This document shows, piece by piece, positions 20,058 to 44,294 of a DNA stretch of 64,000 nt (its first letter is position 1; each line of letters opens with the position of its first letter). This stretch comes from Spironucleus salmonicida. Taxonomy: Eukaryota; Fornicata; Diplomonadida; Hexamitidae. The position numbers were made by a program, and so were the translations under genes. Location: positions 820,001-884,000 of the forward strand of contig CM035316.1 of the NCBI GenBank assembly GCA_000497125.2. Direction: 5' to 3'. The notes under the pieces were generated by a model, which saw only the letters and a list, made by a program, of their open reading frames with translations, made no database searches and was not told the DNA's origin.

Positions 20058-20648
20058 TCACTCTAATTCCCGCTTACGTCCTCTCTTCTCTACTTCTTTA
20101 AGCCGCTTTTTTACTAGATCATTTTGATAAGCACTGATAAAATACTCAAAAAACTCTCCTTTTCCCATTGCATTTAAACTTCTCTCTAGTACATATAAAT
20201 CTACTGCTAAATCTTCAACTGATGTTTTCCCACGTTGGGCTAGACCAAAATCTATGATAATAGCTTTTTAGCCATCGAAAAGAACATTAGAAGGCGTGAG
20301 ATCATTGTGTACTATCTGTAGATCGTGTAACTATGATATTACTTATGCTAAGGAAATAAGAGCATTTTTAGATTCTTCATTTTTGTTTTCATTTAAAATG
20401 GATGTAAGCTATGGAAAATCTAAAAACTCCATTACAATAGTATCATCATTGTAAGAAATCATTATAGGTGCGCTTATACCGCGCTCGTTGAGGATCTGGA
20501 GAATCTTGGCCTCGCCCTTGGTCCTGCGCGCCCGGTGCCTCTGGTCTATGGTGGGGTGCTTGTACTTCTTGGAGAAGCGCGTCTTCACTATCTGGTTGTG
20601 CTCGTTGAGCAGGATCTTGGACTCGGCGCCCTGGAACACGACCTTCAT
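20058..20648 (-). CDS. BUD32: Bud32/PRPK protein kinase (EKC/KEOPS complex)
   Basis: 196 residues, the size of the minimal Bud32 kinase. Motifs: FQGAESKI, KTRFSKKYKHP, HRARRTKGEAKIL, catalytic loop VHNDLTPSNVL, DFGLA (DFG) and the conserved basic tail KEVEKRGRKRE. Bud32 works in the KEOPS complex that makes tRNA threonylcarbamoyladenosine. The first 59 codons are GC-rich and lie inside duplication A; the rest is AT-rich with TAA/TAG as Gln (FPQLTSI, LAQVISQL). The second copy of A keeps only the 5' part, so this is the intact gene. Confidence 0.93.
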
Positions 20649-21747
20649 TCTTGGGACGGGAGGAAGTGGTATATTATGCAGGAGTCTGCACTTTGCGGAA
20701 GGGTACCCCTAGTACTTTCAGGCAGAATGCCCCATCGCCCCCAACGCGGGGCAGCTCCAGAGGCGGCGCAGAGGCAAGAGGCCCAATTCCATTCCACTCT
20801 TCGCCCTCCCTAAAATGGGAGAGTCCGCGTACTTCTCGGCCTAGGTCAGACGCCTGCTGCAGCACCTGAACCAGGTGCACACCTCAGAGGACAGGATGCT
20901 CTCGATAGTAACCACCAATTGCTGGTTCAACGTCTACTACGAGCTCCAGGACGCCTTCAAGGGCTCCAAGGGCTCCAAGGACGGCCAGTAGAAGGGCCTG
21001 TACAGGACCGCCATGGCGCTGACCGAGGGACACTATCAGCGCACAAACCAGAACGGACAGTTCATCTTCGTTGGCACCGTCGCGGGGCACGACTTCGCCT
21101 TCAGCTACGAGCCGGACGCCAAGATTGACTGCCGCGGCAGCCACCGCTTCATGAAGTGCGAGACTCAGTTCCGGGCAGACTTCTACGACTACCTGGGGGA
21201 CGCCCAGCGCACCGCGATCTGCATCTTTGGCAACCAGACCGTACGAATGTTCACGCACGAGTTCGGCAGATTCGCCGTGGAGGAGCGGGCCATCAAGAAG
21301 GGCGCCAAGAGCCAGCAGCAGGTCATCCAGCTGTTCCAGGAATGGAGCGCGGTCTACACCAACATCCAGTGCCCCGGGGCCGCCTTCGTCGCGGGGGAGA
21401 ACCTGGATGACTTCCTGGCGGCCATCCCCGAGTTCAGCGTGCAGAGGGACCTGGTGCTCCGGGCCGCGACTCTGGACGGCGGGGTGGTTTTCGGGCCAGA
21501 GGCGGTCCTGGCGTGCGCGTTCGAGGGAAACTACACCTAGATCGCGATCAGCACGGCGCTCCTGACCCACTACACTGTCCTGAGTGAGGATGGCCAGGCG
21601 AACCTCAAGTACATGTACGAGGGCGAGTTCTATGGTCAGTACCTCCTGGAGTAGTGCGGTGCCGTGCTGGTCTCCAGCGGATGGCAGGAGGGCGATGCAT
21701 TTTTCGAAGAGTACAGAGGGATTTGCTGCTGGAAAAAATATGATTGA
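20472..21747 (+). repeat. segmental duplication A, copy 1 (direct)
   Basis: 1,276 bp matching 38168-39443 at constant offset 17,696. Left edge falls in Bud32, right edge exactly at the TGA of the unknown gene. Differences cluster in the non-coding part (20690-20725) and three synonymous third positions near the 3' end. Confidence 0.95.
20815..21747 (+). CDS. hypothetical protein, 310 aa (copy 1)
   Basis: GC-rich gene starting MGESAYFSAQVRRLLQ and ending GICCWKKYD at TGA; in-frame TAG at SAQVR, DGQQKG, YTQIAI and LEQCGA read as Gln. Globular alpha/beta-looking sequence with several aromatic Tyr/Phe clusters (DFYDYLGDA, QFIFVGTVAGHDF). No signal peptide. A TTCCACTC element lies about 25 bp upstream of the ATG. 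Protein identical to copy 2 (38511-39443), the differences being silent, which implies constraint. Family not recognised. Confidence 0.8.
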
Positions 21748-21849
21748 ATGAATTCGCCTTAGTAACAGGAATTCATTCCTATGCGTGTAGTTTATTTGAA
21801 TAAACTATCGATTTGTTGGTTTTATGTAAGAATATAGTGTGTTTTGCTA

Positions 21850-22773
21850 ATGACATTTTTAATAATTTTTCTTATATTACGAGACAGATTCTATAATACT
21901 ACTCTTTTATACTCCGAGTCGGCACCACCGATCATCAAACCTGACACTGCAAAGCAGAATCCATCTGCGTTCAACGAAAAGCATTGGCTGAATCCGGTAT
22001 TCTGGCTGAACGACGATACGGGTTTCAACTGCTCCCAGTCGCTGATTTAGATAAAGTTGCGGGCGTCTGGCATGTAAACTACTGATGCTACTCAAATCAA
22101 GTACCTCAAGTCCTTCCTGGCGAGGGGTATAGCCGTCTCGGGGCGCCAGCTGGTCCCGTTCGAGGGGGCCGAGGCGCTCAGCTACTCCCAGTACAGGGGC
22201 GGCATCCTCACGAATATTACTAACCCCTGCCCCAAGTCATCCTACCAGCAGTCCAACCACCAGGTCACCTTCATCGGCTACGGAACCGTGAAGGGCACCG
22301 AGGTGTGGGTGCTGATGAACTCGTGGGGGACCCAGTGGGGCGTCGGTGGCTCCTTCTACGTGGAGATCGGGTCCAACGCGCTCTGCAACGAGTACGACGC
22401 AGTTGCCGTTTTGCCCAGGTTCTCGAAGTACAATACCACTAAGGAGCCACTTGGCATGCCCTACAACCAGTCGGAACTCTACAAGCAGGGGCACAACAAG
22501 TACGTCTACGACCTCTTCCCCGAGGTGCGCTGGGGCATGAACGGCCTGGACAGCGTGGATACAGACGGCAAACCGTAGTTCCTAGAGGGGAAGATTTCCA
22601 ACTCCGTCTGGATCCTGGCCGGCATTGTCTGCGTCTTCTTCATGGTCATCATGAGCTTCGTCTGCAAGTGCCTCTGCTGCCCGCCGCCGAAGAAGATCAA
22701 GGTGGCGCTGTACGAGAACCTGTCTGGCGCGCAGGTGCAGGAGATCAACTGGAGCGAGGGTGTCACAGGATGA
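21850..22773 (+). pseudogene. 5'-truncated cathepsin copy
   Basis: Corresponds to the C-terminal half of the cathepsin gene at 42693-44294, inverted. The propeptide and the catalytic cysteine segment are missing: homology begins at 21919, preceded by unrelated AT-rich DNA that happens to be open back to an ATG at 21850. The active-site His (SNHQVTF) and Asn (LMNSWG) and the C-terminal membrane helix remain. Compared with the intact copy it has several amino-acid changes (for example near 22435-22460), consistent with relaxed constraint. Not a functional protease. Confidence 0.85.
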
Positions 22774-22816
22774 CCCTCTGCGTGAACGCATTACTGTATT
22801 ACCTATATGTTAAAGC

Positions 22817-23308
22817 TCACTTCAACCTGAATGCCCCGCGCGCAGCTTCCTCTCCATCACGCGATTCGCTACGAGCTCGACCGGTAGGAGCACGGTGGTC
22901 ACCGCCACCACGTACTGCAGTACCGTCTTCGCCGTGAACCAGGCCTGCATTCTGCGGGTGGGTTTTGTTTGGACTATGTAAGAATCGTGGGTATTATATA
23001 CAATGCGATGGTAAGGGAAAAGGAATGCGAGGCTCACTGGGGTACTCGCCAGCGCCCCGGAGGGAGACCCACAGCTCGGTTAGCTGCCGCTCCAGAGGGA
23101 TGTGCTCGGTCCCCACCAGGAGCGTCATGCCGGACTTCGCGTCGTGGAACTCCGTGAACCGGCCCTGGTGCCTGGTGTCGATGCCGCAGTCTATCGCGAG
23201 GGTCTGCTAGAAGTTTGGCGCGGTGAGCCTGGCGAAGCTGCCGCAGATCCGGACGGAGCACGGACCGGTGGAGGCGCCGCGTCGCAGCAGGCAGTTTGTG
23301 AGTTCCAT
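22817..23308 (-). CDS. hypothetical protein, copy 1 (163 aa)
   Basis: Second copy of the gene at 42158-42649, starting MELTNCLLRRGAST. See that entry for the unresolved relation to the overlapping small membrane protein. Confidence 0.5.
22822..22950 (-). CDS. small membrane protein, copy 1 (42 aa)
   Basis: Second copy of the ORF at 42516-42644 (MQAWFTAKTVLQYV); one hydrophobic segment. It may be an independent gene or the last exon of the preceding gene. Confidence 0.45.
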   Translation of the reverse strand: MQAWFTAKTVLQYVVAVTTVLLPVELVANRVMERKLRAGHSG

Positions 23309-23425
23309 TTCTGCGACTCAATGGGCTTGGTAAGTTACCATATAAATATCGGTTTGTTTTTAAACTGCGTCCGGATTTTACTCGAGAAGGTAAATATAAA
23401 TCCATATTCGATAACTTAAGAAAAA

Positions 23426-23498
23426 TACCTGTTCTAGGAATCGAACCAAGGACCGACAGAACTTCAGTCTGACGCTCTACCATCTGAGCTAAACAGGC
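23426..23498 (-). tRNA. tRNA-Phe(GAA), copy 1
   Basis: 73 nt with a 7-bp acceptor stem (a G-U at the first pair), D stem GCTC/GAGC, anticodon loop CTGAAGT (anticodon GAA) and TTCGATT T-loop. Identical to the copy at 41968-42040. The first anticodon-stem pair is a U-U mismatch. A T5 tract follows the 3' end. The 5' end coincides with the edge of duplication C, so the two copies have different upstream sequences. Confidence 0.93.
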
Positions 23499-23605
23499 AT
23501 AATATAATTATTCATAATATATTATGATAGATATAAATGATTATAATTGAAATTACAATTCTAGATACATTAATATAACTAAACATGAAAATGAAAGAAT
23601 GCGAA

Positions 23606-24676
23606 TCAGAATTCCTTTCTAGCCCAATCGGAATCGGCATCAAATCTGAAATCAAGAGCTTCTATGACTTCACCTTCTTTGAATCTGAGAGTAACAGTAC
23701 CGACTGTTCTGAAAGTTATGGAACCAACGCCGTGTCTCTTACCATTTTGATAATCTCCTTGATAAATATTACCTAACTTATCAATAAACTTACCTTTACC
23801 GTCACGAACATCATTTCTAAACTGACCCTCATAAACAGTACCATCCTGAGATTTGAAAATACCTTTACCACAAGCAACACCAGCTTTCCATTCACCTTCG
23901 TAAACAGAGCCATCTTAAAATGTGTGGATACCAAAACCATCCTTAACGCCGTCTTTGAATTCACCTTCATAGACATTGCCAGTTGCTAAGGTAAGGGTAC
24001 CTTTACCATTGAACATATCGTTTCTAAATTCACCCTCGTAAACGAACTATCTGCATCTTAGCGTACCAAACCCGTGTCTAGCTTCATTGACGTATTCACC
24101 TTCATAAACGGTACCATCAGTAGAAGTATACTTGCCTTTGCCTTACTTCTTTTCATGCTCGAATTAACCTTCATAAACATCTCCATTAGAATAAGTATAT
24201 TTACCGACACCATGGAATTCACCATTCACAAATGAACCCTCATATGTTTCGACAACTTTTCCATTTTCTAAAAAGCGGAGTATACCTTAGCCGTGTCTCA
24301 TATCATTCTTCCAATCACCATCAAATTCTTCTTCATCACCTAAAGTTTGAACACCTTTACCGTGTCTTTCACCTTAAACCCAGTTACCAACATAGATATC
24401 GCCATCAGCTTTGGTTAAGCGACCGAAACCATGAATTTCATTATTAGCCCATTCTCCATCATATACATCACCTGATGGGAATCTGCAGATACCTTTACCA
24501 TGGACTTAGTTATTTTACCATTATCCTTCATATTCAGCTCCGTCAGGATAAATGAATTTACCTTAACCATGCTTCATACCCATATTGAATTAACCAATAT
24601 ACTGAGAACCGTCATCGTATTCAAGATGGCCAGATCCATGCATCTTACCTTCAACAATATCACCGCAGTACTTCAT
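23606..24676 (-). CDS. MORN-repeat protein, 356 aa
   Basis: Built from about 14 MORN repeats of ~23 residues with the pattern YxGxFxxGxxHGxGxx, for example GHLEYDDGSQYIGQF and DGDIYVGNWVQGERHGKG. Starts MKYCGDIVEGKMHG, ends SDWARKEF at TGA; over ten TAA/TAG codons lie at repeat positions normally holding Gln (HGQGKF, YEGQW). MORN proteins scaffold membrane-cytoskeleton structures such as basal bodies or flagellar attachment in protists. No kinase or SET domain is appended. Confidence 0.92.
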
Positions 24677-25184
24677 TAAGTGAAAGGGAAGTAATCAAAG
24701 CGGAAAATCTGGAGAGAAGTGATTTATATTGAATGTTATTATATATTGAAAACGTAATTATAAAAATTTCGTTTTTCATAAATACACACATATACTAATA
24801 TTTATAATATATAGCGCATACTACTAACTTATACTACCATGATAACAAAAAATAACGTATATACATAAGTCAGTATTTTAAGTCTCAGAATACCTTCAGG
24901 CTACTATCCTAGATTTATTGTTTTGGAGACTATCAATTAAAGCATAATTATATATATATCCATTTTTCAGACGATTTCCAAAGAATCACTAATTTAAATT
25001 ACATAAGTTTCTTTTTTCATTCCCGGAACTGTTAACCACCATTATATTAAATATTTTATCAAATTAACAAAAATTACTAACTAAAACTGGGAATTATAAA
25101 AATAGAGTTTTTGAATTTTACAATATAAATTATATTATATAATATTATATAATTATTTCTAAAACCGAACTTGTCAATTTTTCC
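24677..25184. other. AT-rich spacer
   Basis: No gene recognised; TATATTATATAATATTATATAATTA at 25130-25155 is a plausible promoter for the following gene. Confidence 0.5.
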
Positions 25185-25685
25185 ATGCACCCTTATTTCG
25201 CTCGATAATAAACGATTCTCAAACCCGTCGAACCACGAATGCTGCGGAAAACCTAGTCCCTAAATACTTAGCATCAAACTTTCATATCGCAGTACGTGAA
25301 GTCTATCAGTCCAAAATTGCTCAAATTCTCCACAATTCCGTCCTTCAAGGATGCGCTGCTTGATAATTCCTCAAGCGAACGCTGCTTCGTGCCACAGCGA
25401 AGCCTGTGCCTCAACAGTCGGCCTGTTCTGAGCATTAGCAGCAGAGGCGACTTCGCGGAGCGGATCTCCAATGAGATGTACTTGAAGCAAAGGCAAGCAG
25501 ATGAGCACTTCCAGAAGGTCAGCAAAATTAAAAAAGCAGTAGTCCTTACGGCCCTGGCACATGAGGTAGTGGTCTAGATTAAAAATCTACGGTTGGAGGT
25601 TGTCAAGGAGCTGAAGATGATTCAGCGGCTTAAGGGGGCGCAGGAGTAGTAGCGGCAGGACATTTTGTGTTATTTTGATTTTTGA
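25185..25685 (+). CDS. hypothetical protein, 166 aa
   Basis: Starts MHPYFARQQTILKPVEP and ends QDILCYFDF at TGA. N-terminal half is Ser-rich and probably disordered; residues 95-160 form a basic coiled coil (MYLKQRQADEHFQKV, QIKNLRLEVVKELKM). Seven TAA/TAG codons as Gln. Not recognised. Confidence 0.65.
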
Positions 25686-25857
25686 CTAGGTATTGTTATT
25701 AGTATTATTATATTATGTTTAATAGAAAGTGTACGTTTTCCAATTGGTATTATATAATTATTATATTAATATAAATATACTTGTGTTTTCATTGGTTTTT
25801 TGAATTCAAGTATTGGTAATAATTTTAATTGCCTACTATATTCTCCAAATGCTAAAG

Positions 25858-26325
25858 ATGAATACAAGAACACTAACAAAGTCACTAAGACCAAACTTTT
25901 CAGTCACTTTCGGCAAGAATGCGAGCCCGCAATTATACAAAATCCCTCAGTTTCTGTCGTTTAAGTAGCTGTTGATCGAGAACGCGCAAGACGAGTCATT
26001 AGAGATCAGCGAAGGTAGCCTGCCGCGGATTGAACTGGAAACACTACCAGATGATGATAATATCCCAGATAGCGAACTATCAGACTTCGCGGAGCTCATA
26101 TCTAGCCAGCTGAAGCAGTTAGAAAAGGCAAAAGAGCGGCCGGAGACACCGAGGTAGCGGCTACGACACCTCCTGGGAACCGCAAAAGATGAAGTTGAAT
26201 GCTTGCTCAAAGCAGTGGACCAGATCGATGTCCTCCTGGAAAGACTAGATAAAAAAGTCAGGAAGTTCATCTAGAGGCAGGACAAGTTGCATTAAACAGC
26301 ATAATATTATCTAGATGCAGTTTGA
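25858..26325 (+). CDS. hypothetical acidic coiled-coil protein, 155 aa
   Basis: Starts MNTRTLTKSLRPNFSV; acidic centre (LETLPDDDNIPDSELS) and C-terminal helices (ISSQLKQLEKAKERPE, VDQIDVLLERLDKKV). Ends AQYYLDAV at TGA; TAA/TAG as Gln at five places. Same orientation as the flanking genes. Function unknown. Confidence 0.65.
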
Positions 26326-26388
26326 AGTGTGAATTTTATCGCTTATTAATATATTTAAATATTTTATAATTTTTGATTCGATTTCCGG

Positions 26389-26402
26389 TTTTCACTCCAC
26401 TT
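26389..26402 (+). promoter_or_regulatory. TTTTCACTCCACTT element before uS9
   Basis: Ends 5 bp before the uS9 ATG; same motif as before eS12, Snu13 and uL11. Confidence 0.6.
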
Positions 26403-26407
26403 CGTCA

Positions 26408-26818
26408 ATGTCCACTACCATCATTGCCAAGAAGAAGACTGCAGTAGCCCGTGCTATCATTTCCAACGGTAAGGGTGAAATCCGCGTTAATAATGTTCCT
26501 CTTTCCCTTATCCGCCCTGAAATCCTCAGAGAAAAAGCCATGGAAGCCGTTGCTCTCGTTGGTGAGAAAAATCTTTCTCATATCAACATCAACATTACCG
26601 TACGTGGTGGTGGTTATGTTTCCCAGCTCTACGCCGTTAGACAGGCTATTGCTAAGTCTATTGTTGCTTCTATCACTGATGCTGAACAGAAGGAGAATAT
26701 CAAGAAACTCTATCTTTCAGTAGACAGATAAATGCTCGTCGCCGATACTCGCGTTTGTGAGGCTAAGAAATTCGGCGGCCGTGGTGCCCGTGCCAGACGT
26801 CAAAAGTCTTATAGATGA
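26408..26818 (+). CDS. RPS16: 40S ribosomal protein uS9 (S16)
   Basis: 136 residues with uS9 signatures: KKKTAVARAIIS, VNNVPLSLIRPEILREK, NITVRGGGYVSQLYA, RQAIAKSIVAS and the C-terminal FGGRGARARRQKSYR that reaches the P-site tRNA. A TAA at the SVDRQMLV junction must be read as Gln to keep the conserved tail, direct evidence for the altered code. Stop TGA. Confidence 0.95.
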
Positions 26819-26941
26819 TTTAATTAACTTTAAATTTAATATATGACTCAAAAGAGCAATATGTGACGAGTAAACTATGATGTTTACCCAATTTTATTGC
26901 AATTTCGAGACTCTTTTATATATATTATACATTAAACAACT

Positions 26942-28732
26942 TCACTTTGAAATTTGTCTCCAAATTTCTATTCCTGCCTAAGCTCTAATTTCGGCGGCTA
27001 GAGTCTCATCAAGTAATATTTGCGCATGCATTTCTACATCAAACGATTTCTACGCTGTTATTTTTCTTTAACTCGTAGATTTCTACTATGGTTATGATTA
27101 GTTAATGACTGACTTTTCTATAGCTTTACTTGTTTACGTTGACACTATTTTAACATCAGGTTTACTATGCCCTATAGGCCGAATTTATTTTAACTTAATT
27201 TATATTTTAAAAATTTCTTATTTAAGCTTATTTTCGCGATCTTTATAGTATTCTTCTAAGTTATTATATGATTCCTAATTTTAAACTTTACTACCTTTTT
27301 CCAATTTTACCTAATTGAAGGAAATTTGCAATTGATCATAGTCTATCCTAGTTTAGTTGTATTTATTTTCTAAGTTTTACAGTTACTTGGATTTAAAAGA
27401 CATTGTATTTCGCATAGATAAATTTTCATTTAGTAATAACGTTCCACGTTTTTCAGTTATATTAACCTTATTCTATAATAAATCAATATTTTATAATAAT
27501 TTAAGCTCTCTTGTTTCCATTTATTAATTCATGGTCTTAAAATATTCCACATTTTCAACTAGACCTAATCGTGAAGATAATTTCTAGTTCCAAGTACTGA
27601 AATCTACATCATCTATATCAAATAAATTCATTACTAAATTAATTAGTTTTTTATACTTAATCATGCCCATTCCTTGGTTTTATACTTCTTACTTCAATGT
27701 TTCGATTTCTTTATTTTTAGATAAAATCTTTTCAGTTTCTTTTTTGAATTTAAACTTTAATCGCTTTTCTGCAACTACTTACCTCTAAATCTCATTGCGC
27801 AACCCATCTAATATTTCAGTATTGTCATTAACTATCAGCGTTTGCTCAATAAGTTGTGATATTTTTAGGTCTTTCTCTGTTATCTCAGCAGCATAGTCTT
27901 TACTTTATGGAATATCTTCTAATGTTAAATTAGTTTCTAAAAGTTCAGATCTCTATTATAAATGTAAGTTTTAGCTTTAGAGTGTCTTTATTTGGTTAGA
28001 ATATACTTACAAACTATTGTTTAGTGAATTTATTTCCTCTTTTGAGATATCACATTATATATGCTTGTCTTAGTTAGGTTTTTAACCCAATTATGCTTTT
28101 AAATTATCAATTTCAGTGATATATATTGTATAGTCTTGCTGTTAATGTTCTTATGTTTCTGTAACAGAGTCAATCAAAGTACGTCTATTAAGCTGCTTTT
28201 TCATTCTTAGTTTTTCTTCAATAAGCTCGTTTTTATCATCTAGCAACTCTTAAATTCTAACTTCTAGACGAGAAATCTTTTCATTTTGATCAATTTACTA
28301 TAATTATGAATGGAGCTTCGACTAGAGTTAAAAAGGAATTTTAGGAGAATTAATCAATAATGGCGTCTGAGTGATAAGTTTAACATTATTTAAATCTTAC
28401 TTGAGTGTAGTCAAATCGGTAGAAAATTTTTATACACGTTCCAACATAGTCTTATTTGTAGATATAAGTTCTGCTCGTTTTTCTTGTAAGTATTCATTTT
28501 ATTCAGTCTTATTATGCATCTTTTCACGAAATCTGTCGTTAAGCTCATCTAGTTATTAATGCAAGCTAATAATCTCATGGCCTTGATCTTCGTTTTACAT
28601 TAAAGCTAACTCGTGCTCCTCACTAAATTGTATGAGCTAAATTTAAATTCCTTCTATATCTATCTATGGAAACTTTGGGAGTTAATCCTTTAATTCTTTT
28701 AGAATTTATTTTATAGATGTGAACTCTTCCAT
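26942..28732 (-). CDS. long coiled-coil protein, 596 aa
   Basis: A 597-codon frame with roughly sixty TAA/TAG codons and no internal TGA. Almost entirely coiled coil (for example QELLDDKNELIEEKL, DGLRNEIQRQVVAEK) with a basic Gln/Ser-rich stretch near residue 545 and a final helix AEIRAQAGIEIWRQISK. Gln encoded by TAR dominates, as expected of a coiled-coil protein. Likely a cytoskeletal or basal-body component by analogy only. Its ATG directly abuts the stop of the upstream gene (TGAATG). Confidence 0.8.
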
Positions 28733-29053
28733 TCAAATTAGTTAATTTAATATATGTATATATAAGATACATTTACTGAATTAAAGGCACAATGATTTAT
28801 ATAAGTTTAAAACTGAATATATAGAAAATTGAGTACCATTATCAGGGCCGACTGAATATTTAAAATACACCGCCAGATTTGTACTTGCCTCAAACGGTCT
28901 CAAAATTAAAAACGAATTATTTCTACCGTTTATATAATTAACTATCGTAAAACACATCTCACCAGCATTTAAGTTTCGACAACTGCACTTTTTCATTGAG
29001 TCCTTAACATTAGTCACAAATAATTATACAATTTTTTTTATACAATTGTACAT
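28733..29053 (-). CDS. hypothetical protein, 106 aa
   Basis: Starts MYNCIKKIVQLFVTN, Cys-containing middle (KKCSCRNLNAGEMCF). The TGA is immediately followed by the ATG of the coiled-coil gene. Divergent from the flavodoxin at 29121 with 67 bp between starts. The C-terminal 30 residues are low complexity, so the true end or coding status is uncertain. Confidence 0.45.
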
Positions 29054-29120
29054 TTTCGACTAGCAGATCTTACCAGTTACTACCTAAATATATAAATTTA
29101 AAATCGCCGCTCCCCAATTC

Positions 29121-29567
29121 ATGCCAATTTCACTCGTATACGCTTCAGAAACTGGTACCGCGCAGGGACTCGCGGATGCTGCCAAGGCTATTTTAGAGCA
29201 AAAAGGACTCACGTGCGAAATTTTCAGCGCTGATGCCGCCTGCGCAAGCGTATTTGGGAGCAATTTCGTATATATCACCTGCACTTTCTACGATGGTGAG
29301 CACCCGGCATCAGCATAGATAAACGGCGAGTTCTTTGCTAAATCAGCTCCGTACATTGGAGCGTGTAGCGGTGCGAAATTTGCAGTGTTTGGTATCGGTA
29401 GCACCAGTTACGAACAATTTAACGTCGCTGCCATCGAGGCCGAAACGGTGTTTACAGGCCTCGGGGGAACTATGGTGGTTGATACAGTAAAACACGACAT
29501 GGACGGTAGTGAAGATGTAAATTAGGTACTTGAAGCGTTCATTAAGGAGTTCGCTTCAAAAATTTGA
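29121..29567 (+). CDS. flavodoxin-like protein, paralogue 2
   Basis: 148 residues, same length as the paralogue at 16014-16460. FMN-binding loops: YASETGTAQGLAD at residues 7-19, CTFYDGEHP and FGIGSTSYEQF. TAG at SAQING and TAG at VNQVLE read as Gln. GC-rich coding sequence against AT-rich flanks. Function as a soluble electron carrier is inferred from the fold. Confidence 0.88.
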
Positions 29568-29643
29568 CAAAGTGATGGTTAACATTTGATGTTTGGGCGA
29601 AAATAGATTCTTTAGAGTAGATTCGAGAGGATATATGAATACT

Positions 29644-30039
29644 ATGATTAAATTATATATAACTATTCCATCGGAACCTTCAAATGCTAGAAAAAGAAAA
29701 TTTTTAACTGAAGAAGGTTAAGGCGGTATAGATGAATAATAAACTGATTTTAGATTTATAATAATTTTTATCTGTTTAACTTAAGTATAAGTTTCTGTGC
29801 TTTTGTCGGTACTATTTATGAAGTTTATAGAGTTTATTTATGTAAACATAAAATATACAAAAATAATATAAAGTAATATATTAAATAAATATAATATTAA
29901 CATGAATATATATTTTTTTCAACATCCAGTTTACTCACTAAATTATAAATTCGTACATGTTTAATATTATTCGAACACTTAGCTTAAACTACTAGTTTGT
30001 TATATTAGGAACCCTTAGTAACGTTTTCTAATTTTGTGA
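29644..30039 (+). CDS. possible small membrane protein, 131 aa
   Basis: Starts MIKLYITIPSEPSNARK, followed by a charged segment and a hydrophobic stretch (FRFIIIFICLTQVQVSVL). The distal half is AT-driven low complexity. Coding is plausible for the first 75 residues only. Confidence 0.35.
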
Positions 30040-34509: not shown

Positions 34510-34704
34510 TGGTGGTTTAAATTTTTTAGTATTTGCAAATGATCTTTGAGCAGTTTGGGATTTTAATCATAATTCTGAATCATTTTAAGTTTACCTCGTA
34601 ACCTTAAGTCTTCAGATTCAAATATTACTATAGTGAGACTCATAATAACGAAACATTTAGTGTTATGTAAATTAAAATTTACTAACCTTTACAATGTAAA
34701 CACA

Positions 34705-34896
34705 ATGGAAGAGTTATCATAATCACAAATTTCATTTGTTAACCACGAAATTTGTGTTATTACTTCCATACAAGCCTCACCACTAACCGATAAGATGAAA
34801 GATGTTAAAATAATCCAGCCTGAGAAAGGTAAATCCTCTGTGCATGAGACGACAGATAATAGTGAAGTATCTGACATGGAAGATAGTAATAAGTGA
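34705..34896 (+). CDS. small acidic protein, 63 aa
   Basis: Starts MEELSQSQISFVNHE and ends VSDMEDSNK at TGA; one TAA read as Gln. Ser/Glu/Asp-rich tail. Not recognised. Confidence 0.5.
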
Positions 34897-35284
34897 TAAC
34901 TTATATGTTAATCATATATGCTTGTAACCTAATAACTATCTATTCGCTAGAAATCTACAAAACAAAAATATTATTTATCGTAACTTATAGTATTTTATAC
35001 TAATTATTAGTAAATGCTGGAAATTACTGATGTTATATTTCTTACAAATTCATAGTTTTTCTATTTAATATTTATTTAACCAACAATAAGCTCTATAAAG
35101 TTTTTCCCGGTTTATAATAATTATATTTATATAAAATAATTAATAAGTACTCAAAATATTTTGTAATTCATAATCATTATAATTATATAAATTTATATAA
35201 GATTCTCTAAAAACTAATCTATAAACAAAAAACCTACTTTATTATAACTTAAATTAAAATAAGTAGAATATCTGTTTACTTAAA
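34897..35284. other. AT-rich spacer
   Basis: No gene recognised; AATTATAATTATATAAATTTATATAA near 35170-35200 may be promoter sequence for the next gene. Confidence 0.5.
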
Positions 35285-35527
35285 ATGTTCAAACTTAACC
35301 TTAACAGTGTAGATACCAAGTAATCTAAGACCCCAGTCAACTCTTCAAGGTAACAAATTTCAGCTAGATAATAATAGACCCTAATAGATAGGCTGGAAAT
35401 CTAAATCCATGTAAATATAATAACTACTTAATAGTTGTATAAGAGAATTAAAAGCTTAACAAGTAGCAGTTTGAAATTAGAAAAAATGATTTAAGAGAAA
35501 ATAGAAAATTTTAAGTGTATTTAGTGA
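35285..35527 (+). CDS. small coiled-coil protein, 80 aa (maybe longer)
   Basis: Starts MFKLNLNSVDTKQSK and runs through a helical region (RLEIQIHVNIITTQQL, KLEKMIQEKIENF) to TGA at 35525. Nine or more TAR codons. After this TGA the same frame remains open and protein-like for another 50 codons (SRNTISDLYQSHEIND), so this TGA may be a nonsense mutation or read through. Confidence 0.5.
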
Positions 35528-36518
35528 GTTTTTGAGTCTAGGAATACCATTAGTGATTTGTACCAATCCCATGAAATTAATGATAATTTATCCTTATTTG
35601 TCCATGACTATTACAATTTATTCTACGAAAAGTACACAATTAAATAAAATCTAAAATACATATACAATTTTAATGCATAAGGTTGATCGCAAACTTGGTC
35701 TCTTAGCATTATTTTTTAAAAGTTACTAGTATTTATAGCAAATCAAATATTTTAAAATTGATAGGAACTAAGTTTAAAATGTATTATTGTTATTCTATTT
35801 TATGTAAAATCTGCGAAATTTAAGTTCCAATAAAGGTATTATCAAAGAAAATATAATCATAAATTTTTAAAAAGTATATAATATTGATACTTATGATACT
35901 AGAAATTACTGTAATATAAACATAATTTTACTGCCATGATCTTCATAAAACAGCTAGATATAGTTAAATATTAACCTTAAAGCTACTCTTTTCATTTCAT
36001 TTTATTATAATCTACATACCATGAGTTAAATATTCACATATAATTTTTCATTCATAATATTAGTACTTAAACATGTGTAGATTTAAAAAATTGAATATAA
36101 ATAAATTAAACAGAATAATAAACTCTTAGTATACTTATACTGGTAGTTCCTATAATATATAATTAGAATAAAAGTATATTATATATAATAATCATATGTG
36201 AGAAACAATTCACAACAACTAAAAGTCATAATGTAATGTCTATTGAGTCTTCTTCAGAGTCTACTTAACACATCGGGACATTAAGTTTAATTATTTCGAA
36301 TTTTTCGGGATAAATAATATTTTAAACTACGTCAAAACTGTCATTTATATTTTAGGGTTTCATTAAGGAAAGGTGAATTAATATACACATATTTTATCAG
36401 ATAATATATGGTTTCTTATTATAGTTGAATATAATTTAGAGAATCCTGAAAGTCTAGCACTTTTACTGTAAATAGAGAAAATGGATTGCTGATAATGGAT
36501 TTTACAGTAATCTATAGT
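35528..36518. other. AT-rich spacer
   Basis: Apart from the in-frame extension of the preceding gene (35528-35680) no gene can be supported; short ATG frames near 35571 and 36236 are weak. Confidence 0.4.
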
Positions 36519-36707
36519 TCACTCTAATACAATATCCAAATTACTCCTCGAAGTAAATACTTATTTTGCCTACGTTCTTAGGCTGATCGTTGACTATGTT
36601 TATGATCTGATTAGCTTAAATTCAAACTCTTAATATGTCTTCTGGCCAAAACAATCGTCTGCATCGGTCTACTCGACATATTTTAATTTAGGTGGACATA
36701 TTCCCAT
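36519..36707 (-). CDS. Met-Gly family small protein, 62 aa
   Basis: Starts MGICPPKLKYVEQTDADDCFGQK, here given only as its key features: Gly2, Cys4, KLK core and ADDCFG about 20 residues in, aligning with TDAHFG of the member at 1-253. The 5' context TTTCCAGTAAAATGGG is the same as at that gene. Seven TAA/TAG codons read as Gln; ends NLDIVLE at TGA. Gly2 and Cys4 would allow dual acylation. Function unknown. Confidence 0.6.
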
Positions 36708-36911
36708 TTTACTGGAAAGTATTATAATTGTTATTTAATTAAAATGATGTTGACAGAAAAACAAATCCAATAAATTCCATATTATTTACTTATATAACTT
36801 TATATTAATCTAATTAATATCTGAAAGTATCTTGTGGTTCGAAAATGTAAACCTTAAATTATTATTTGTAAATAATTATAAATACTATAATAATAAAAGT
36901 AACTTTAAACT

Positions 36912-37787
36912 TCAATCATACAAATTATCCATATAATTCACCATAACACGATTAAAAATTTTATCGAACGCAAAATACACATCCCCCTCAATCTCCTGAA
37001 TTTTGGTAACCGTCTTGTCCTTCAACCTTTTCTGGCGCCGGATCATTTAAATATATGCTAGGAAGTCACGACCCAGGAAGTTCTCGCAATGCTGCGCATG
37101 CAGCTGTTCTATCTACTCGTTAATCACCTCTGTATCGGTCTTCAAAATCGACATATTTCGTCGTATTCCGATGGTCCGCGTAACCGTCTGCTACACTTTG
37201 CGCCATACTTAGAGGTCCTGGAGCGTCACAATGTATGTTTTGGGTTCGAACTACTCAGTGATACTCCTAACCAAAAAAGCGGTTCGCTCTTTCCGGCGCC
37301 TAAAGCTGGATAGTTTTTGATTTACGAAAAGCAAGTTTGCGACTATAGCTTTTGAGGCTTCTACAACGGGCTAGAAAATGGATCCCGATACGCTAACAGA
37401 GCTATGATGCGCTTCGGAATGCTCGTTTATTGTCTGTATCACTGGTGCACCGAGCTCTTGGAGGTAGTTAGCGGTACATAGGTCCTGCCTGCTCTGGGTT
37501 TGGCCCCGTACTAGCCTGGCGCTAGACATGCTGCCCTGCTTTTTTAGCGGTCTGGCTTGTTGTGTTGAGGGTGCATTTAGATCTTTTGGGCTGGTAGCTC
37601 TATTTTTGAAGAATGAGGTGTGTGGCGAGAGAACTAGCCCTGTGATTATGCGCTGTGGAGAGCTTGTTGTTAGGATGTTCTTTTGCCTGCAAAATGTTTC
37701 AATTTATCTGCGCTGCTGGTAGTTAGCTCGAAACTGAGGCGATACCGAGCGGTTTTCGATAAAAATCTACTGTGCCCGTGGGAACAT
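36912..37787 (-). CDS. coiled-coil protein, diverged paralogue, 291 aa
   Basis: Starts MFPRAQQIFIENRSVSP, matching MIPRAQPAIIENRS of the two B-block copies, and keeps ELGAPVIQT, ANLLFVNQKL, IGIRRNMSILKTD and FLGRDFLAYIQMIRRQKR. It ends KIFNRVMVNYMDNLYD at TGA, showing the natural length of the tail. Eight TAA/TAG codons as Gln. It lies 2.2 kb from B copy 2, suggesting an older tandem duplication. Function unknown; predicted C-terminal coiled coil. Confidence 0.75.
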
Positions 37788-38167
37788 TTTTGTAAATTAA
37801 TGGTAATCACAGTTAATAATAATTTATATAGTCGCTAAGTATTCAAAACTCTGTTTTACATAATCCTATAAAATATATTAGAATATATAAGTTTTAAATA
37901 AAAATAAAAAACAAACATAAGTTTTTCCATTTAATTTTAATGAGTATTGATGAATATAGTAATTTGGAAGCATCCTTAGCAGAGTTTGAAGTTGAGAAAC
38001 TAGTATAAACATATTAAGGTTTATTTTACTTAATAATTTGGTTGGTTAAGGAACGAGTGAGAAAGTAAAAAATATGAGAATTATGTTTGTATATACACAA
38101 AATAATAATATTTTGACACTAAAATAGTCGGATACTTTATATTTTCATATTAAGTCTACTTGAGTGA
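37788..38167. other. AT-rich spacer
   Basis: No gene supported; precedes the left edge of duplication A copy 2. Confidence 0.5.
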
Positions 38168-38344
38168 GCTTATACCGCGCTCGTTGAGGATCTGGAGAAT
38201 CTTGGCCTCGCCCTTGGTCCTGCGCGCCCGGTGCCTCTGGTCTATGGTGGGGTGCTTGTACTTCTTGGAGAAGCGCGTCTTCACTATCTGGTTGTGCTCG
38301 TTGAGCAGGATCTTGGACTCGGCGCCCTGGAACACGACCTTCAT
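38168..38344 (-). pseudogene. truncated Bud32 copy
   Basis: Only the first 59 codons of Bud32 (through ILNERGIS) are present; the duplication edge then joins unrelated AT-rich DNA that lacks the catalytic loop and DFG motif. The frame reads on without homology. A non-functional kinase fragment. Confidence 0.9.
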
Positions 38345-38510
38345 TCTTGGGACGGGAGGAAGTGGTATATTATGCAGGGGTCTGCACTTTACGGAAGGGT
38401 GCCTCTAGCACTTTCAGGCAGAATGCCCCATCGCCCCCAACGCGGGGCAGCTCCAGAGGCGGCGCAGAGGCAAGAGGCCCAATTCCATTCCACTCTTCGC
38501 CCTCCCTAAA

Positions 38511-39443
38511 ATGGGAGAGTCCGCGTACTTCTCGGCCTAGGTCAGACGCCTGCTGCAGCACCTGAACCAGGTGCACACCTCAGAGGACAGGATGCTCTCG
38601 ATAGTAACCACCAATTGCTGGTTCAACGTCTACTACGAGCTCCAGGACGCCTTCAAGGGCTCCAAGGGCTCCAAGGACGGCCAGTAGAAGGGCCTGTACA
38701 GGACCGCCATGGCGCTGACCGAGGGACACTATCAGCGCACAAACCAGAACGGACAGTTCATCTTCGTTGGCACCGTCGCGGGGCACGACTTCGCCTTCAG
38801 CTACGAGCCGGACGCCAAGATTGACTGCCGCGGCAGCCACCGCTTCATGAAGTGCGAGACTCAGTTCCGGGCAGACTTCTACGACTACCTGGGGGACGCC
38901 CAGCGCACCGCGATCTGCATCTTTGGCAACCAGACCGTACGAATGTTCACGCACGAGTTCGGCAGATTCGCCGTGGAGGAGCGGGCCATCAAGAAGGGCG
39001 CCAAGAGCCAGCAGCAGGTCATCCAGCTGTTCCAGGAATGGAGCGCGGTCTACACCAACATCCAGTGCCCCGGGGCCGCCTTCGTCGCGGGGGAGAACCT
39101 GGATGACTTCCTGGCGGCCATCCCCGAGTTCAGCGTGCAGAGGGACCTGGTGCTCCGGGCCGCGACTCTGGACGGCGGGGTGGTTTTCGGGCCAGAGGCG
39201 GTCCTGGCGTGCGCGTTCGAGGGAAACTACACCTAGATCGCGATCAGCACGGCGCTCCTGACCCACTACACTGTCCTGAGTGAGGATGGCCAGGCGAACC
39301 TCAAGTACATGTACGAGGGCGAGTTCTATGGTCAGTATCTCCTGGAGTAGTGCGGCGCCGTGCTGGTCTCCAGCGGATGGCAGGAGGGCGACGCATTTTT
39401 CGAAGAGTACAGAGGGATTTGCTGCTGGAAAAAATATGATTGA
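38511..39443 (+). CDS. hypothetical protein, 310 aa (copy 2)
   Basis: Identical protein to 20815-21747 with silent differences near the 3' end (three third-position changes between about 39334 and 39392). The upstream 165 bp is duplicated too, so both copies could be expressed. The repeat ends at the stop codon, so the 3' untranslated regions differ. Confidence 0.8.
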
Positions 39444-40016
39444 TCGAGATACCAGTAGAAATATATATATATATTATGTTTATGGGATATTTATAAATTT
39501 TAGTTTACTCTTTTTGATCATTTTATTTGATATCATAATTCTATTACGACTGATTTTATTATAAAACACGTATTTCAGCAGTTTATATATCTTTAAGATT
39601 TCTGTTTTATCTACGTAGTGTGTTATTTACTTTTTAATTTCAATATTTCAATAAATAGTACTACCATGTATAAGTTATCATGTTTATTTTCCAAATTTAG
39701 ATTTTTATATATGTCCTAATATTAGCAGTATACAAAGCATATTAGAATAGATCATCTACATAAAAATGAAGTTATTTATTTAAAATTTATAAGCAGCAAA
39801 TAACACATCTACTCCTGTATGCTCTTCAAGATTACCGAGATCTGCGCGATCATAGTAGAGTTTACTTGATAAGTTAGAACTATAGGTTCATGTAAATATG
39901 GTTCTTACAAAATAGATGTTAAAAAAAGTTAAGACTTTAACTCATAACTGTGATATTATATTAGAGCATATCCATTAATAGTTAAAATGATATATTTAGT
40001 TCATTAATTTTATATG
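39444..40016. other. AT-rich spacer
   Basis: Separates duplications A and B at this locus. A minus-strand open stretch near 39800-39930 looks weakly coding but has no usable start; nothing else seen. Confidence 0.4.
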
Positions 40017-40922
40017 TCACTCAATTAGAAATATTCTGCTATGAATATAATGCATCCAAATTTTGTTAAATATTCGATCAAATTCGATGTACACGTCATT
40101 CTGGATCTATTGTATGCTCTTCACCATCTGCTACTTATTCCGTTTCTGTCTCTTAAGCATTTACACATACCCTATAAAGTCCTTTCCCAGAAAGCTCTGC
40201 TCCTTCTGTGAGCGGAATCGGTGAACCTGTGCGTCTAATATTTCGTGATCACTTTTAAGAATCGACTAGTTTCTGCGGATACCACATACCTGTATAGAGG
40301 CACACTGGGACTATTTCCACGCGTAGATGTCCTCCGTCGAGATCCTGCCCGATTTCCCGCGTAGCGCATCTGCAATGTTACACGTCATGTGAGATATTAC
40401 ACTGCTCCTGGACTTACTCGTCCTGAGATTCTAATTCAGTATGTACAAATTAGCAAGTATATTTTTAGAGTCCGCAATCGCCTCGAGTTCTGCATGGCTG
40501 GACGACAAGGAGCAGTTCCGCTCCGTCGAGAGTGGCGAGATGGCCTCCATAACCGGGGCACCTAACGCCTATAGCGATGTCACTGAGCAAACGCGAAATC
40601 CGCCCAGCGTGCTAGACGGGTTTCGCACAAGGCGGGCGCTGGAGAGCTGCGGTTGCTGCCCCTTGAGGCGCTGCACTCGCTCTGGGGTAACTCCGCTCTG
40701 CGTCATCTGACTGTGGGAATTTTCCCGCTACGGAGGTCCTGGCTACCGAGCAGACAGCGGCCGCCCCGAAACGCGGCGCTAAAACTGATTGGGTGCGGCC
40801 GATGTGGATATGCTCAGCTTCTTGCAGGCGTCATCAATGAAGCGCTTCTGGTGGTAGTTTGGGCCGCGGTACGGCTGGAGTGACCGGTTCTCGATGATGG
40901 CCGGCTGGGCTCTGGGAATCAT
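40017..40922 (-). CDS. coiled-coil protein, copy 2, 301 aa
   Basis: Starts MIPRAQPAIIENRS. Shares the body of the copy at 10986-12041, but ends FDRIFNKIWMHYIHS and a few more residues, similar in spacing to IFNRVMVNYMDN of the paralogue at 36912-37787. This is therefore probably the original gene and the other the copy. Divergent from eS12 copy 2. TAA/TAG as Gln at many positions. Function unknown. Confidence 0.7.
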
Positions 40923-41379
40923 TTTTGCATCTTGCACAATATAATGCATAAAGCTCTTAAATCATGAAACTGGATTTTTTGTTTCTGTGGGATGGCTGAG
41001 ATTTGCAGAAATAGGCCGAAGGGATACATATGGCAGCGTAGGTCTATCTGTCGTATCTAAGAGGGCCTACGAGCGCTACCAGTCTTTCTGTATCATGTAC
41101 GAAACTTGACCCAGCAGGATGACCGCTAGCTAAATCACGCCTGGCACTGCAATTCGCTGAAACTCCGACTAGTTTTCGTACTTCAACCTGTTTGGAGGGT
41201 GCCGTATCCAGCATCGTCATACTGCCTGGCCACTTCGACGGCAAGAATCAGGGGTAGGGAGCTGCTAGAAGAGAGCTTGGGGCGCGTGCCGGACTGCCTT
41301 TACCGCCTCGCCAGTGCGCACGCAGCCTCGCCCAGCCCCTGTGGCATCCCCAAAATACCCGAACCCGGTTTCATTCTAA

Positions 41380-41393
41380 ATTTCCACTCCACG
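41380..41393 (+). promoter_or_regulatory. TTTCCACTCCACG element before eS12 copy 2
   Basis: Same element as at 12499-12512. Confidence 0.6.
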
Positions 41394-41397
41394 CACA

Positions 41398-41781
41398 ATG
41401 GCTGACCAGTTATCCTCCTTCTTCAGAAAGATCAGAGTTCACGGTAACCTCGTTTCCGGCCTCCGCCAGGTCGTCAAGGCCCTCGAAGCCAAGCAGGGCG
41501 TCAAGGTTGTCATCCTCGCCAACGACTGCAATGAGAACGCCTACAAGGCCCTCATCAAGGCTCTCTGCAAGAAGCACGGCGTCTCCATCGTCGAGAAGTT
41601 CCCCAAGAAGCAGATCGGCGAGCTCGCCGGCCAGTTCAGACTCAAGGGTACCATCTGCGAAGAGAAGACCGCCGACGCTCGTAACAAGGGTAAGATCGTC
41701 GGTGCCTCCGTCCTCGCCATCACCGACTTCGGCACCCTCACCGAGGAAGACCAGAAGTGTTTCAACGAAATGCTCCAGTGA
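41398..41781 (+). CDS. RPS12: 40S ribosomal protein eS12, copy 2
   Basis: Identical protein to 12517-12900, with the same 5' element; I see no nucleotide differences in the coding part although the shared upstream spacer has several, which points to strong constraint or recent conversion. The 3' flank diverges 58 bp after the stop. Confidence 0.95.
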   Translation: MADQLSSFFRKIRVHGNLVSGLRQVVKALEAKQGVKVVILANDCNENAYKALIKALCKKHGVSIVEKFPKKQIGELAGQFRLKGTICEEKTADARNKGKIVGASVLAITDFGTLTEEDQKCFNEMLQ

Positions 41782-41967
41782 TATTAACGTGATAGTTTTT
41801 GACTAGAGGACCGTTACCAGGTTGCCTATGTATTTATTTATTATACTAACATATTATTTTTTCATACGATGTAATATTTGTTCATATGTTTTCCTATTTG
41901 AAATTAAATGGTATATTGCTAACATATTTTACTAAATATTCGTAAAATACCTAAATTGTATCTATAC

Positions 41968-42040
41968 GCCTGTTTAGCTCAGATGGTAGAGCGTCAGACT
42001 GAAGTTCTGTCGGTCCTTGGTTCGATTCCTAGAACAGGTA
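41968..42040 (+). tRNA. tRNA-Phe(GAA), copy 2
   Basis: Identical to 23426-23498 on the other strand. Followed by TTTTT, a Pol III terminator. Its 5' end is the edge of duplication C. Confidence 0.93.
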
Positions 42041-42157
42041 TTTTTCTTAAGTTATCGAATATGGATTTATATTTACCTTCTCGAGTAAAATCCGGACGCA
42101 GTTTAAAAACAAACCGATATTTATATGGTAACTTACCAAGCCCATTGAGTCGCAGAA

Positions 42158-42649
42158 ATGGAACTCACAAACTGCCTGCTGCGACGCGGCGCCTCCACCG
42201 GTCCGTGCTCCGTCCGGATCTGCGGCAGCTTCGCCAGGCTCACCGCGCCAAACTTCTAGCAGACCCTCGCGATAGACTGCGGCATCGACACCAGGCACCA
42301 GGGCCGGTTCACGGAGTTCCACGACGCGAAGTCCGGCATGACGCTCCTGGTGGGGACCGAGCACATCCCTCTGGAGCGGCAGCTAACCGAGCTGTGGGTC
42401 TCCCTCCGGGGCGCTGGCGAGTACCCCAGTGAGCCTCGCATTCCTTTTCCCTTACCATCGCATTGTATATAATACCCACGATTCTTACATAGTCCAAACA
42501 AAACCCACCCGCAGAATGCAGGCCTGGTTCACGGCGAAGACGGTACTGCAGTACGTGGTGGCGGTGACCACCGTGCTCCTACCGGTCGAGCTCGTAGCGA
42601 ATCGCGTGATGGAGAGGAAGCTGCGCGCGGGGCATTCAGGTTGAAGTGA
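42158..42649 (+). CDS. hypothetical protein, copy 2 (163 aa)
   Basis: Starts MELTNCLLRRGAST; residues 1-90 are GC-rich and coding-like (LAIDCGIDTRHQGRF, TLLVGTEHIPLERQL). After about residue 90 (EYPSEP) the frame runs through an AT-richer stretch and then out of phase with the better-looking ORF at 42516-42644. If 42420-42514 (GTACCC...CCGCAG) were removed, the first 88 residues would fuse in frame to that membrane segment, giving a tail-anchored protein. Either two overlapping genes or one spliced gene. Confidence 0.55.
42516..42644 (+). CDS. small single-pass membrane protein, 42 aa
   Basis: MQAWFTAKTVLQYVV... with one hydrophobic helix ending before a basic tail (RVMERKLRAGHSG). Almost all third codon positions are G or C, supporting this frame over the overlapping one. 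Preceded by TATATAATA at 42465-42475 and CCGCAG at the start. Convergent with the cathepsin, 48 bp between stops. Confidence 0.5.
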   Translation: MQAWFTAKTVLQYVVAVTTVLLPVELVANRVMERKLRAGHSG

Positions 42650-42692
42650 GCTTTAACATATAGGTAATACAGTAATGCGTTCACGCAGAGGG

Positions 42693-44294
42693 TCATCCTG
42701 TGACACCCTCGCTCCAGTTGATCTCCTGCACCTGCGCGCCAGACAGGTTCTCGTACAGCGCCACCTTGATCTTCTTCGGCGGCGGGCAGCAGAGGCACTT
42801 GCAGACGAAGCTCATGATGACCATGAAGAAGACGCAGACAATGCCGGCCAGGATCCAGACGGAGTTGGAAATCTTCCCCTCTAGGAACTACGGTTTGCCG
42901 TCTGTATCCACGCTGTCCAGGCCGTTCATGCCCCAGCGCACCTCGGGGAAGAGGTCGTACACGTACTTGTTGTGCCCTTGCTTGTAGAGTTCCGACTGGT
43001 TGTAGGGAATGTCAAGTGGCTCCTTAGTGGCATTGTACTTCGAGAACCTGGGCAAAACGGCAACCGCGTCGTACTCGTTGCATAGCGCGTTGGACCCGAT
43101 CTCCACGTAGAAGGAGCCACCGACGCCCCACTGGGTCCCCCACGAGTTCATCAGCACCCACACCTCGGTGCCCTTCACGGTTCCGTAGCCGATGAAGGTG
43201 ACCTGGTGGTTGGACTGCTGGTAGGATGACTTGGGGCAGGGGTTAGTAATATTCGTGAGGATGCCGCCCCTGTACTGGGAGTAGCTGAGCGCCTCGGCCC
43301 CCTCGAACGGGACCAGCTGGCGCCCCGAGACGGCTATACCCCTCGCCAGGAAGGACTTGAGGTACTTGATTTGAGTAGCATCAGTAGTTTACATGCCAGA
43401 CGCCCGCAACTTTATCTAAATCAGCGACTGGGAGCAGTTGAAACCCGTATCGTCGTTCAGCCAGAATACCGGATTCAGCCAATGCTTTTCGTTGAACGCA
43501 GATGGATTCTGCTTTGCAGTGTCAGGTTTGATGATAGGTGGTGCCGAGTCAGAGTCGAAAATCGAAACGTAAGGGGCATCCTCCTCGTAGTTCAGGGACG
43601 AAACCTTGTAGTCGGCGATGTCCTGCGCTGCATACTAATAGTTACCGCCTGCACAGAACAGATTCTGCCCGTACGAGTTGTTCATGATGTACTCGACAGA
43701 AAATACCAAATCGATGTTCGTCTGGTTTTCGAGCGAAGTCCCTGCGTGTATTTCCCTATAGTAGGTAATATCGTGCATGAACAGAGAGTGCATCACGAAC
43801 CTCGTGGCCTAAGCCCAGCAGGACCCGCAAGTCCCCTGGTCGATAGACCTCATGGTGAGCCCGTCCTTCCGCAGGTCTACAGACTGCGGCAAGTTAGCTC
43901 CAGAAAACACGTTAGTCGTGATAAAAGCGTCATCTAACGTCACATACTTGATGCTGGAAGCCGTAGAATCCGAGCAAATCGCTTTGACGATTTCTAGAGA
44001 TTTTCTGTTGTACGTTTCAAGTTTCGCATCTGCCGGATCCACAGCAGCCGCGGTGTAGCTGACCAGCTCTTCCGGGAGGTTTGGAGCCATATAGCCTGTC
44101 GCCGGTGCGTGCAGGCGGTCCGAAAACTGGGAAATGTAGAGCTTCCGGGAGGGGTGCGCCTTGATTACTTGCAGATTCGCGCAGAAATATTTCTGCGCCT
44201 GGTCTTCTAGCTCTTTAGTTTCGTAGCTCTTCGAATACTGGTGCTTGAATGCCTTGAACTTTGCATTGCAGTTAAATGCTAGGAGCAGCAGCAT
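42693..44294 (-). CDS. papain-like cysteine protease with C-terminal membrane anchor
   Basis: 533 residues. A short signal-like N-terminus (MLLLLAFNCNA), an I29-type propeptide (FKAFKHQYSKSYETKE), then the C1A domain: Gln and catalytic Cys in DQGTCGSCWA (Cys159), His in SNHQVTFIGYG and Asn in LMNSWGTQWG. After the protease domain comes a transmembrane helix (SVWILAGIVCVFFMVIM) and a Cys-rich cytosolic tail. TAA/TAG read as Gln at five sites, including directly after GSCWA. Membrane-anchored cathepsins are known in diplomonads and act in endo-lysosomal compartments. The frame is also open upstream to an ATG at 44591, but an AT-rich promoter-like stretch favours 44294. Confidence 0.9.

Follow-up and report, generated by a model that had tools for sequence, protein, structure and literature searches.

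We analyzed a 64,000-nt stretch of DNA (hereafter the window; C1:820001-884000 of a 14.47-Mb genome in 37 contigs) from Spironucleus salmonicida, a single-celled fish parasite, in which GC-rich blocks recur as nearly identical copies and base composition shifts at the edges of these copies, sometimes in the middle of a gene. The genes of the window are open only when TAA and TAG are read as glutamine, and coordinates are window positions unless marked C1. Self-comparison of the window, called for in a preliminary description of this DNA and carried out here by BLASTN, recovered the two blocks reported there with edges a few bases longer. Block A occupies 20468-21747 at locus 1 and 38164-39443 at locus 2, both on the plus strand (direct, 1280 bp, 9 mismatches, 99.3% identity, E = 0), and block C occupies 21905-23501 on the minus strand at locus 1 and 41965-43561 on the plus strand at locus 2 (inverted, 1597 bp, 13 mismatches, 99.2% identity, E = 0). 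With such E values, these repeats are not due to chance. The same alignment uncovered block B, overlooked in the initial two-block picture, with plus-strand copies at 11018-12967 and at 39895-41848 in locus 2 (direct, 96.0% identity, 4 gap openings). The three blocks are mutually unrelated and lie in a row, A, B, C, at locus 2 (38164-44371), where a cathepsin gene extends past C. Genome-wide look-ups, which give lower bounds, found at least two copies each of A and B. Block C is partly present a third time, since a paralogue of the entire cathepsin gene lies at C1:893596-895270.

Block A at locus 1 (GC 0.60 vs 0.30 and 0.38 in its 300-bp flanks) encompasses the 5′ part of a minus-strand gene for the TP53RK-like kinase Bud32, a spacer, and the complete gene P0008. 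Bud32 is intact at this locus (20058..20648, minus strand, 196 aa), is crossed by the block edge at codon 60, and aligns with the solved TP53RK over residues 2-195; none of the protein matches listed (120 of 180) was named as diplomonad. At locus 2, where the 300-bp flanks of block A have a GC of 0.22 and 0.21, Bud32 is represented by a 5′ fragment of ~60 codons (38164..38344, minus strand), identical to locus 1 except for one base at the block edge. P0008 (20815..21747, plus strand, 310 aa, inferred start codon) matches no Pfam family, has a GC content at third codon positions (GC3) of 0.86, and is repeated at 38511-39443 with the frame open in both copies. The final base of a TGA stop is the right edge of the block.

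Block C carries part of a gene for a papain-family cysteine protease (cathepsin), a spacer, and a gene for tRNA-Phe(GAA). The protease is full length at locus 2 (42693..44294, minus strand, 533 aa; Pfam Peptidase_C1 profile positions 1-212 of 220), whereas the truncated copy at locus 1 (21905..22773, plus strand) is devoid of the N-terminal half and matches only profile positions 113-212. The tRNA genes are located at the block edge in both copies (41968..42040, plus strand, at locus 2; 23425..23499, minus strand, at locus 1), with the edge 2-3 bp beyond them. The stop codon, the tRNA, and GC boundaries had all been described as coinciding with block edges; each of these coincidences was confirmed, and the last became our main finding. 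Several loci carry almost the same tRNA-Phe gene (98-99% identity over 80-84 bp), and the position of the C edge may reflect such near-identical genes elsewhere. Comparison of the tRNA-Phe flanks with those of three other tRNA-Phe loci exceeded 200 shuffles in one of three cases for locus 1 and in none of three for locus 2, too few to draw anything about which locus is native. Block B contains a gene for an L30e-type ribosomal protein (41398..41781, plus strand; GC3 0.83), with an equally long second open frame at 12517-12900 in the other copy.

The opposite truncation of Bud32 and cathepsin is therefore as first reported, and it makes copying of A from locus 1 to locus 2, and of C from locus 2 to locus 1, reasonable for the first copying events; that these events were linked is the part of the claim that found no support. 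Truncation in opposite directions also speaks for a reciprocal exchange of cassettes between the two loci, as originally put forward. Yet both loci keep both blocks and neither gives up what the other gets, B is a third block, A is direct and C inverted, 13 other pairs occur nearby, and no step requires the two copyings to be linked, all of which makes such an exchange very improbable. Instead, A, B, and C are separate duplications, and pairs of this kind are common nearby. Misassembly is unlikely, and an assembly artefact behind the blocks highly so: they span at most 2 kb, compared with published PacBio reads (N50 14.6 kb, 161x) complemented by optical maps (PMC9509377), and their copies differ at 9 (A), 13 (C), and 80 (B) alignment columns.

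The sharp contrast in composition would also fit GC-rich cassettes of foreign origin, acquired recently through a mobile element or laterally. The initial account had noted neither transposases nor terminal repeats nor target-site duplications, and our results agree: no transposase family was revealed among 14 open reading frames (ORFs) scanned with Pfam, which are not all those present, and inspection by eye of the edges of 17 pairs uncovered neither terminal repeats nor target duplications, the edges looking blunt. Moreover, the three blocks are unrelated to one another, and Bud32 can be aligned with its ordinary counterparts over the GC-rich portion. We therefore give foreign cassettes very little credence. 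A Pfam scan of one set of seven ORFs left six without a family, five of them at or across block edges. Many other edge-crossing ORFs are overlapping frames and were excluded. Three edge-crossing genes with a Pfam family were found, namely Bud32, cathepsin, and a tubulin-tyrosine ligase (TTL) gene outside the window (C1:753211-754845, minus strand; Pfam TTL residues 118-410).

With 200 kb around the window added, the resulting 264 kb were compared with themselves by BLASTN, and matches of at least 85% identity over at least 200 bp, tandem ones included, were scored as duplicates. These account for 30.9% of the 264 kb. Their GC is 0.526 vs 0.335 elsewhere, and 90.3% of the bases with a 301-bp GC above 0.6 fall inside them. 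For the edge analysis, we retained 16 dispersed pairs of at least 713 bp and at least 94% identity, that is, A, B, C, and 13 more, and set aside matches that were tandem, of low complexity, shorter, or redundant. The pairs are near-identical copies with unrelated flanks; 11 of the 16 are inverted, and their copies lie a median of 11 kb apart, measured from midpoint to midpoint. Duplicates were sought within the 264 kb and by genome look-ups of parts, and the genome-wide pattern is taken from the assembly paper (PMC9509377). That assembly has 14.7 Mb, including 284 kb of gaps, and 33.5% GC, and 19.2% of it is duplicated at a mean GC of 44.7% vs 30.7% elsewhere. Duplicated DNA is thus GC-rich there as it is here; the difference is that the portion of that paper considered here holds no analysis of edges, of mid-gene steps, or of the cause of the GC level, whereas here edges and genes are resolved.

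The 16 pairs provide 64 edge-flanks, of which 15 were dropped since the DNA outside is duplicated too; the 49 left, which stem from 32 block ends, are interdependent. Mean GC outside these edges was 0.25-0.29 within 350 bp and 0.32-0.34 further out. On the inner side, the 50 bp next to the edge averaged 0.475, and DNA at a depth of 200 bp or more averaged 0.53-0.56. The rise at the edge (~0.27 to 0.54) was positive in 45 of 49 cases. The GC changepoint mapped at a median of 15 bp from the edge, and to within 25 bp in 29 of 49 (vs 9% for jittered edges), and random single-copy positions gave a mean absolute GC step of 0.07. Non-coding DNA, here DNA with no ORF of 100 codons, behaved alike, with a GC of 0.463 inside (5,880 bases) vs 0.267 outside (9,557 bases).

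Nineteen of the 32 block ends have single-copy DNA outside both copies. At 16 of these, GC inside exceeded that of the richer of the two outsides, by more than 0.1 at 12 (Wilcoxon p = 0.0008). The step is usually present on both copies and therefore also on the donor copy. This bears on the view that GC richness came first, in which pre-existing GC-rich segments, shaped by regional mutation bias, break, are copied, and insert into AT-rich DNA. Such an insert gives a step at the recipient only, yet most of the testable ends are stepped on both copies; further, Bud32 and TTL have their steps inside an intact gene, 4-7 codons from the edge. On the other hand, GC islands and ORFs with GC3 steps do exist in single-copy DNA, as detailed below, and a 2007 survey judged the pattern compatible with a mutational bias that differs from region to region (PMC1805757). 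On balance, we consider it unlikely, albeit a serious alternative, that GC richness preceded duplication.

The two mid-gene steps are pronounced. In Bud32, 54 of the 60 codons inside block A end in G or C (GC3 0.90) vs 31 of the 136 outside (0.23; p = 3e-19), and the GC3 changepoint falls at codon 56, with the block edge at codon 60.3. Similarly, GC3 of the TTL gene rises from 0.54 over 360 codons to 0.97 over 184, with the changepoint at codon 360 and the edge at codon 353.7. Genome look-ups returned no other match for the part of Bud32 outside block A, nor for the part of TTL outside its duplicate. The 3′ part of the TTL gene is held by an inverted pair (L020, C1:750034-753784 / 755961-759711) that is 100% identical over 3.75 kb, with a GC of 0.69 vs 0.26-0.36 in its flanks.

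These steps also bear on codon selection for expression, by which whole genes would become GC-rich and gene-sized duplicates would inherit that composition. Many blocks do contain whole genes, among them the L30e gene with its high GC3. However, a step in the middle of a gene strongly disfavours codon selection for Bud32 and TTL, non-coding DNA inside the blocks is GC-rich as well, and high GC3 has been reported in weakly expressed genes of this species, for which the optimal codons of highly expressed ones are no explanation (PMC1805757). Codon selection is thus a very unlikely source of the pattern.

Signs of conversion between copies were found within the duplicates. The left end of block B is a diverged, AT-rich flank of ~165 bp (39895..40059, plus strand, GC 0.22; counterpart 11018-11178), which is homologous between the copies, with an alignment score of 101 vs 67 for the highest of 500 shuffles. 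In 25-bp windows, this flank is 48-76% identical at a GC of 0.15-0.26, and identity reaches 100% within ~25 bp; across the block as a whole, 17 of the 20 100-bp windows show 97-100% identity. The flank is homologous DNA that homogenisation apparently no longer reaches. One duplication thus displays two levels of divergence, and its core has therefore been homogenised. Because old, diverged DNA thus adjoins a nearly identical core, the time of copying cannot be read from 99% identity, and duplicates should not be dated by identity here. Divergence is likewise uneven between the two full cathepsin genes (X2 and X3), with 10 differences over the 733 sites of the 5′ half vs 57 over the 869 sites of the 3′ half (p = 6e-8), and alignment of their 5′ flanks scored marginally above shuffling (44 vs a maximum of 43). 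In the outer 100 bp of block ends, mismatches were above expectation in 11, equal to it in 1, and below it in 2 of the 14 pairs with mismatches, an excess that is favoured by how local alignments end.

From the duplications, the sharp steps on both copies of most testable ends, the steps within Bud32 and TTL, and the two divergences within one duplication, all of them observed directly, we infer that conversion is ongoing and has caused the rise in GC, and likewise the size of its bias. The best explanation for these data, and a probable one, is that old dispersed duplicates have been homogenised by ectopic gene conversion with a strong bias towards GC. Each duplication would start as one-way copying of a DNA fragment to another place, after which continuing ectopic gene conversion would keep the copies nearly identical. 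Repair of heteroduplex mismatches would prefer G and C (GC-biased gene conversion). Conversion would be limited to homologous DNA, and GC would thus climb within the shared tract and end at its edge, whether this edge falls in non-coding sequence or within a gene, even midway through it. Flanks that leave conversion would diverge and remain AT-rich, for which the left flank of B is an example. If the third positions of Bud32 began like the rest of the gene, then ~40 of 60 would have turned into G or C, and the same in both copies, one of which is a mere fragment; GC-biased conversion could yield this change without selection.

Several observations weigh against GC-biased conversion. According to simple equilibrium arithmetic from a GC3 of 0.23 outside and 0.90-0.97 inside, the required bias is 97:3 to 99:1 were conversion the sole force at work or, expressed as scaled strength, 3.4-4.7; ~97:3 is large. 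Three of the 19 block ends lack a step and four more have one of only 0.01-0.07; one of the three stepless ends is the left one of B, whose outermost homology is the diverged AT-rich flank. The cathepsin gene displays no GC3 step at the C edge (changepoint at codon 308, edge at codon 244), although it offers no clean test, because its other half is duplicated too. The predicted correlation between local identity and GC failed (rho = -0.07 over 404 windows), and two of the pairs, 913 (rho -0.65) and 885 (rho -0.40), show an inverse relation. Recent changes polarised in the cathepsin triple, at 12 sites only, comprise 4 from A or T to G or C, 6 in the opposite direction, and 2 neutral ones, with no excess towards G or C. 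An exception to the GC rule is the inverted pair 971 (C1:967541-971098 / 971740-975297), which is 100% identical over 3.56 kb and mostly AT-rich (0.36); it is perhaps a recent duplication.

Single-copy DNA adds to these difficulties. Among the 67 GC islands in the 264 kb, 26 lie outside the duplicates found there, and genome-wide look-ups of 13 of these (three in part, and some leaving one first-look candidate unscored) revealed no near-identical partner. Similarly, at least 5 of 63 single-copy ORFs of at least 250 codons, picked by length only, have strong internal GC3 steps (C1:925519-928827, 948960-951830, 730855-732765, 983395-984357, and 780919-783834), and the first three of these lack a near-identical second copy genome-wide. 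The GC-rich side of these ORFs reaches a GC3 of 0.58-0.75 in four and 0.86 in one, vs 0.90-0.97 in Bud32 and TTL. They may be remnants with a lost partner, or GC may vary in them for another reason.

The former option leads to a more general version of GC-biased ectopic conversion, which we advance tentatively, as somewhat short of probable: extreme bias would make GC islands throughout the lineage, with duplicates driven to ~90-97% GC at silent sites and single-copy islands as decaying ghosts of lost partners. If so, base composition would record which parts of the genome were in conversion and for how long, and the effective bias (~97:3) would far exceed the ~70% stated for palindromes of the primate X (PMC8981503).

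These results join two lines of earlier work. The 2007 survey documented abrupt changes in GC, along with unusual codon usage among genes of weak expression, which neither mutational nor selection scenarios explain easily, and argued against optimal codons and, for most genes, against lateral transfer (PMC1805757). A compositional shift located at duplicate edges and in the middle of genes connects that puzzle with the GC-rich duplicates described in 2022 (PMC9509377) and renders an old question testable with existing data, and GC-biased conversion offers a testable cause for the GC islands called unexplained in 2007 (PMC1805757). In the portions of the literature considered here, gene conversion is named once in PMC9509377, for surface-protein families, the phrase is absent from PMC3916229, which gives a GC of 36.2% for coding and 25.4% for intergenic DNA, and biased gene conversion is mentioned for microsporidian chromosome ends (PMC4704409).

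Closest in mechanism are the palindromes of the primate X chromosome (PMC8981503), near-identical inverted copies with GC above that of their flanks, outside genes too. The human difference there is 46.3% vs 41.2%, whereas here it is ~0.54 vs 0.27 at edges, and GC3 differs by 0.90 vs 0.23 in Bud32 and 0.97 vs 0.54 in TTL, with the step, unlike in the palindromes, resolved to a few codons; conversely, the polarity of substitutions was demonstrated directly there and not here. Ribosomal arrays, multi-copy histones, and human segmental duplications (cited in PMC8981503) are further cases in which converting copies turn GC-rich, but A and B are present here as two copies only and hold unrelated genes, so that the function of a family is not the link. 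Among the titles and abstract openings listed in searches of the open-access literature on diplomonads, Giardia, and Spironucleus, none proposes GC-biased conversion for Spironucleus. The mouse gene Fxy/Mid1 spans the pseudoautosomal boundary and has a GC step within one gene where recombination starts. There, recombination is allelic and the boundary is that of sex chromosomes, whereas the copies described here lie within one chromosome. If our explanation is true, gene conversion would have a very strong compositional effect, and each gene across an edge would be a natural experiment, one gene with two compositions. GC or codon bias in this genome should then not be taken as a sign of lateral transfer or of expression.

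Other repeats were evident in and around the window. An inverted pair at window 60493-63751 and C1:885138-888397, which ends ~250 bp before the right end of the window, is 99.9% identical over 3.26 kb, with a GC of 0.42 inside and 0.22-0.43 in the 300-bp flanks. Another inverted pair, at window 6148-7337 and C1:812625-813814 (99.3%), has two diverged relatives (69%) at C2:1114911-1115854 and C2:1126569-1127512, which are ~11 kb apart and in opposite orientation. BLASTN also revealed an imperfect repeat at window 562-722, consisting of two overlapping copies that are 80% identical and offset by ~68 bp. Finally, a minus-strand self-match identified a 58-bp near-perfect palindrome at window 44649-44707, ~350 bp upstream of the cathepsin gene.

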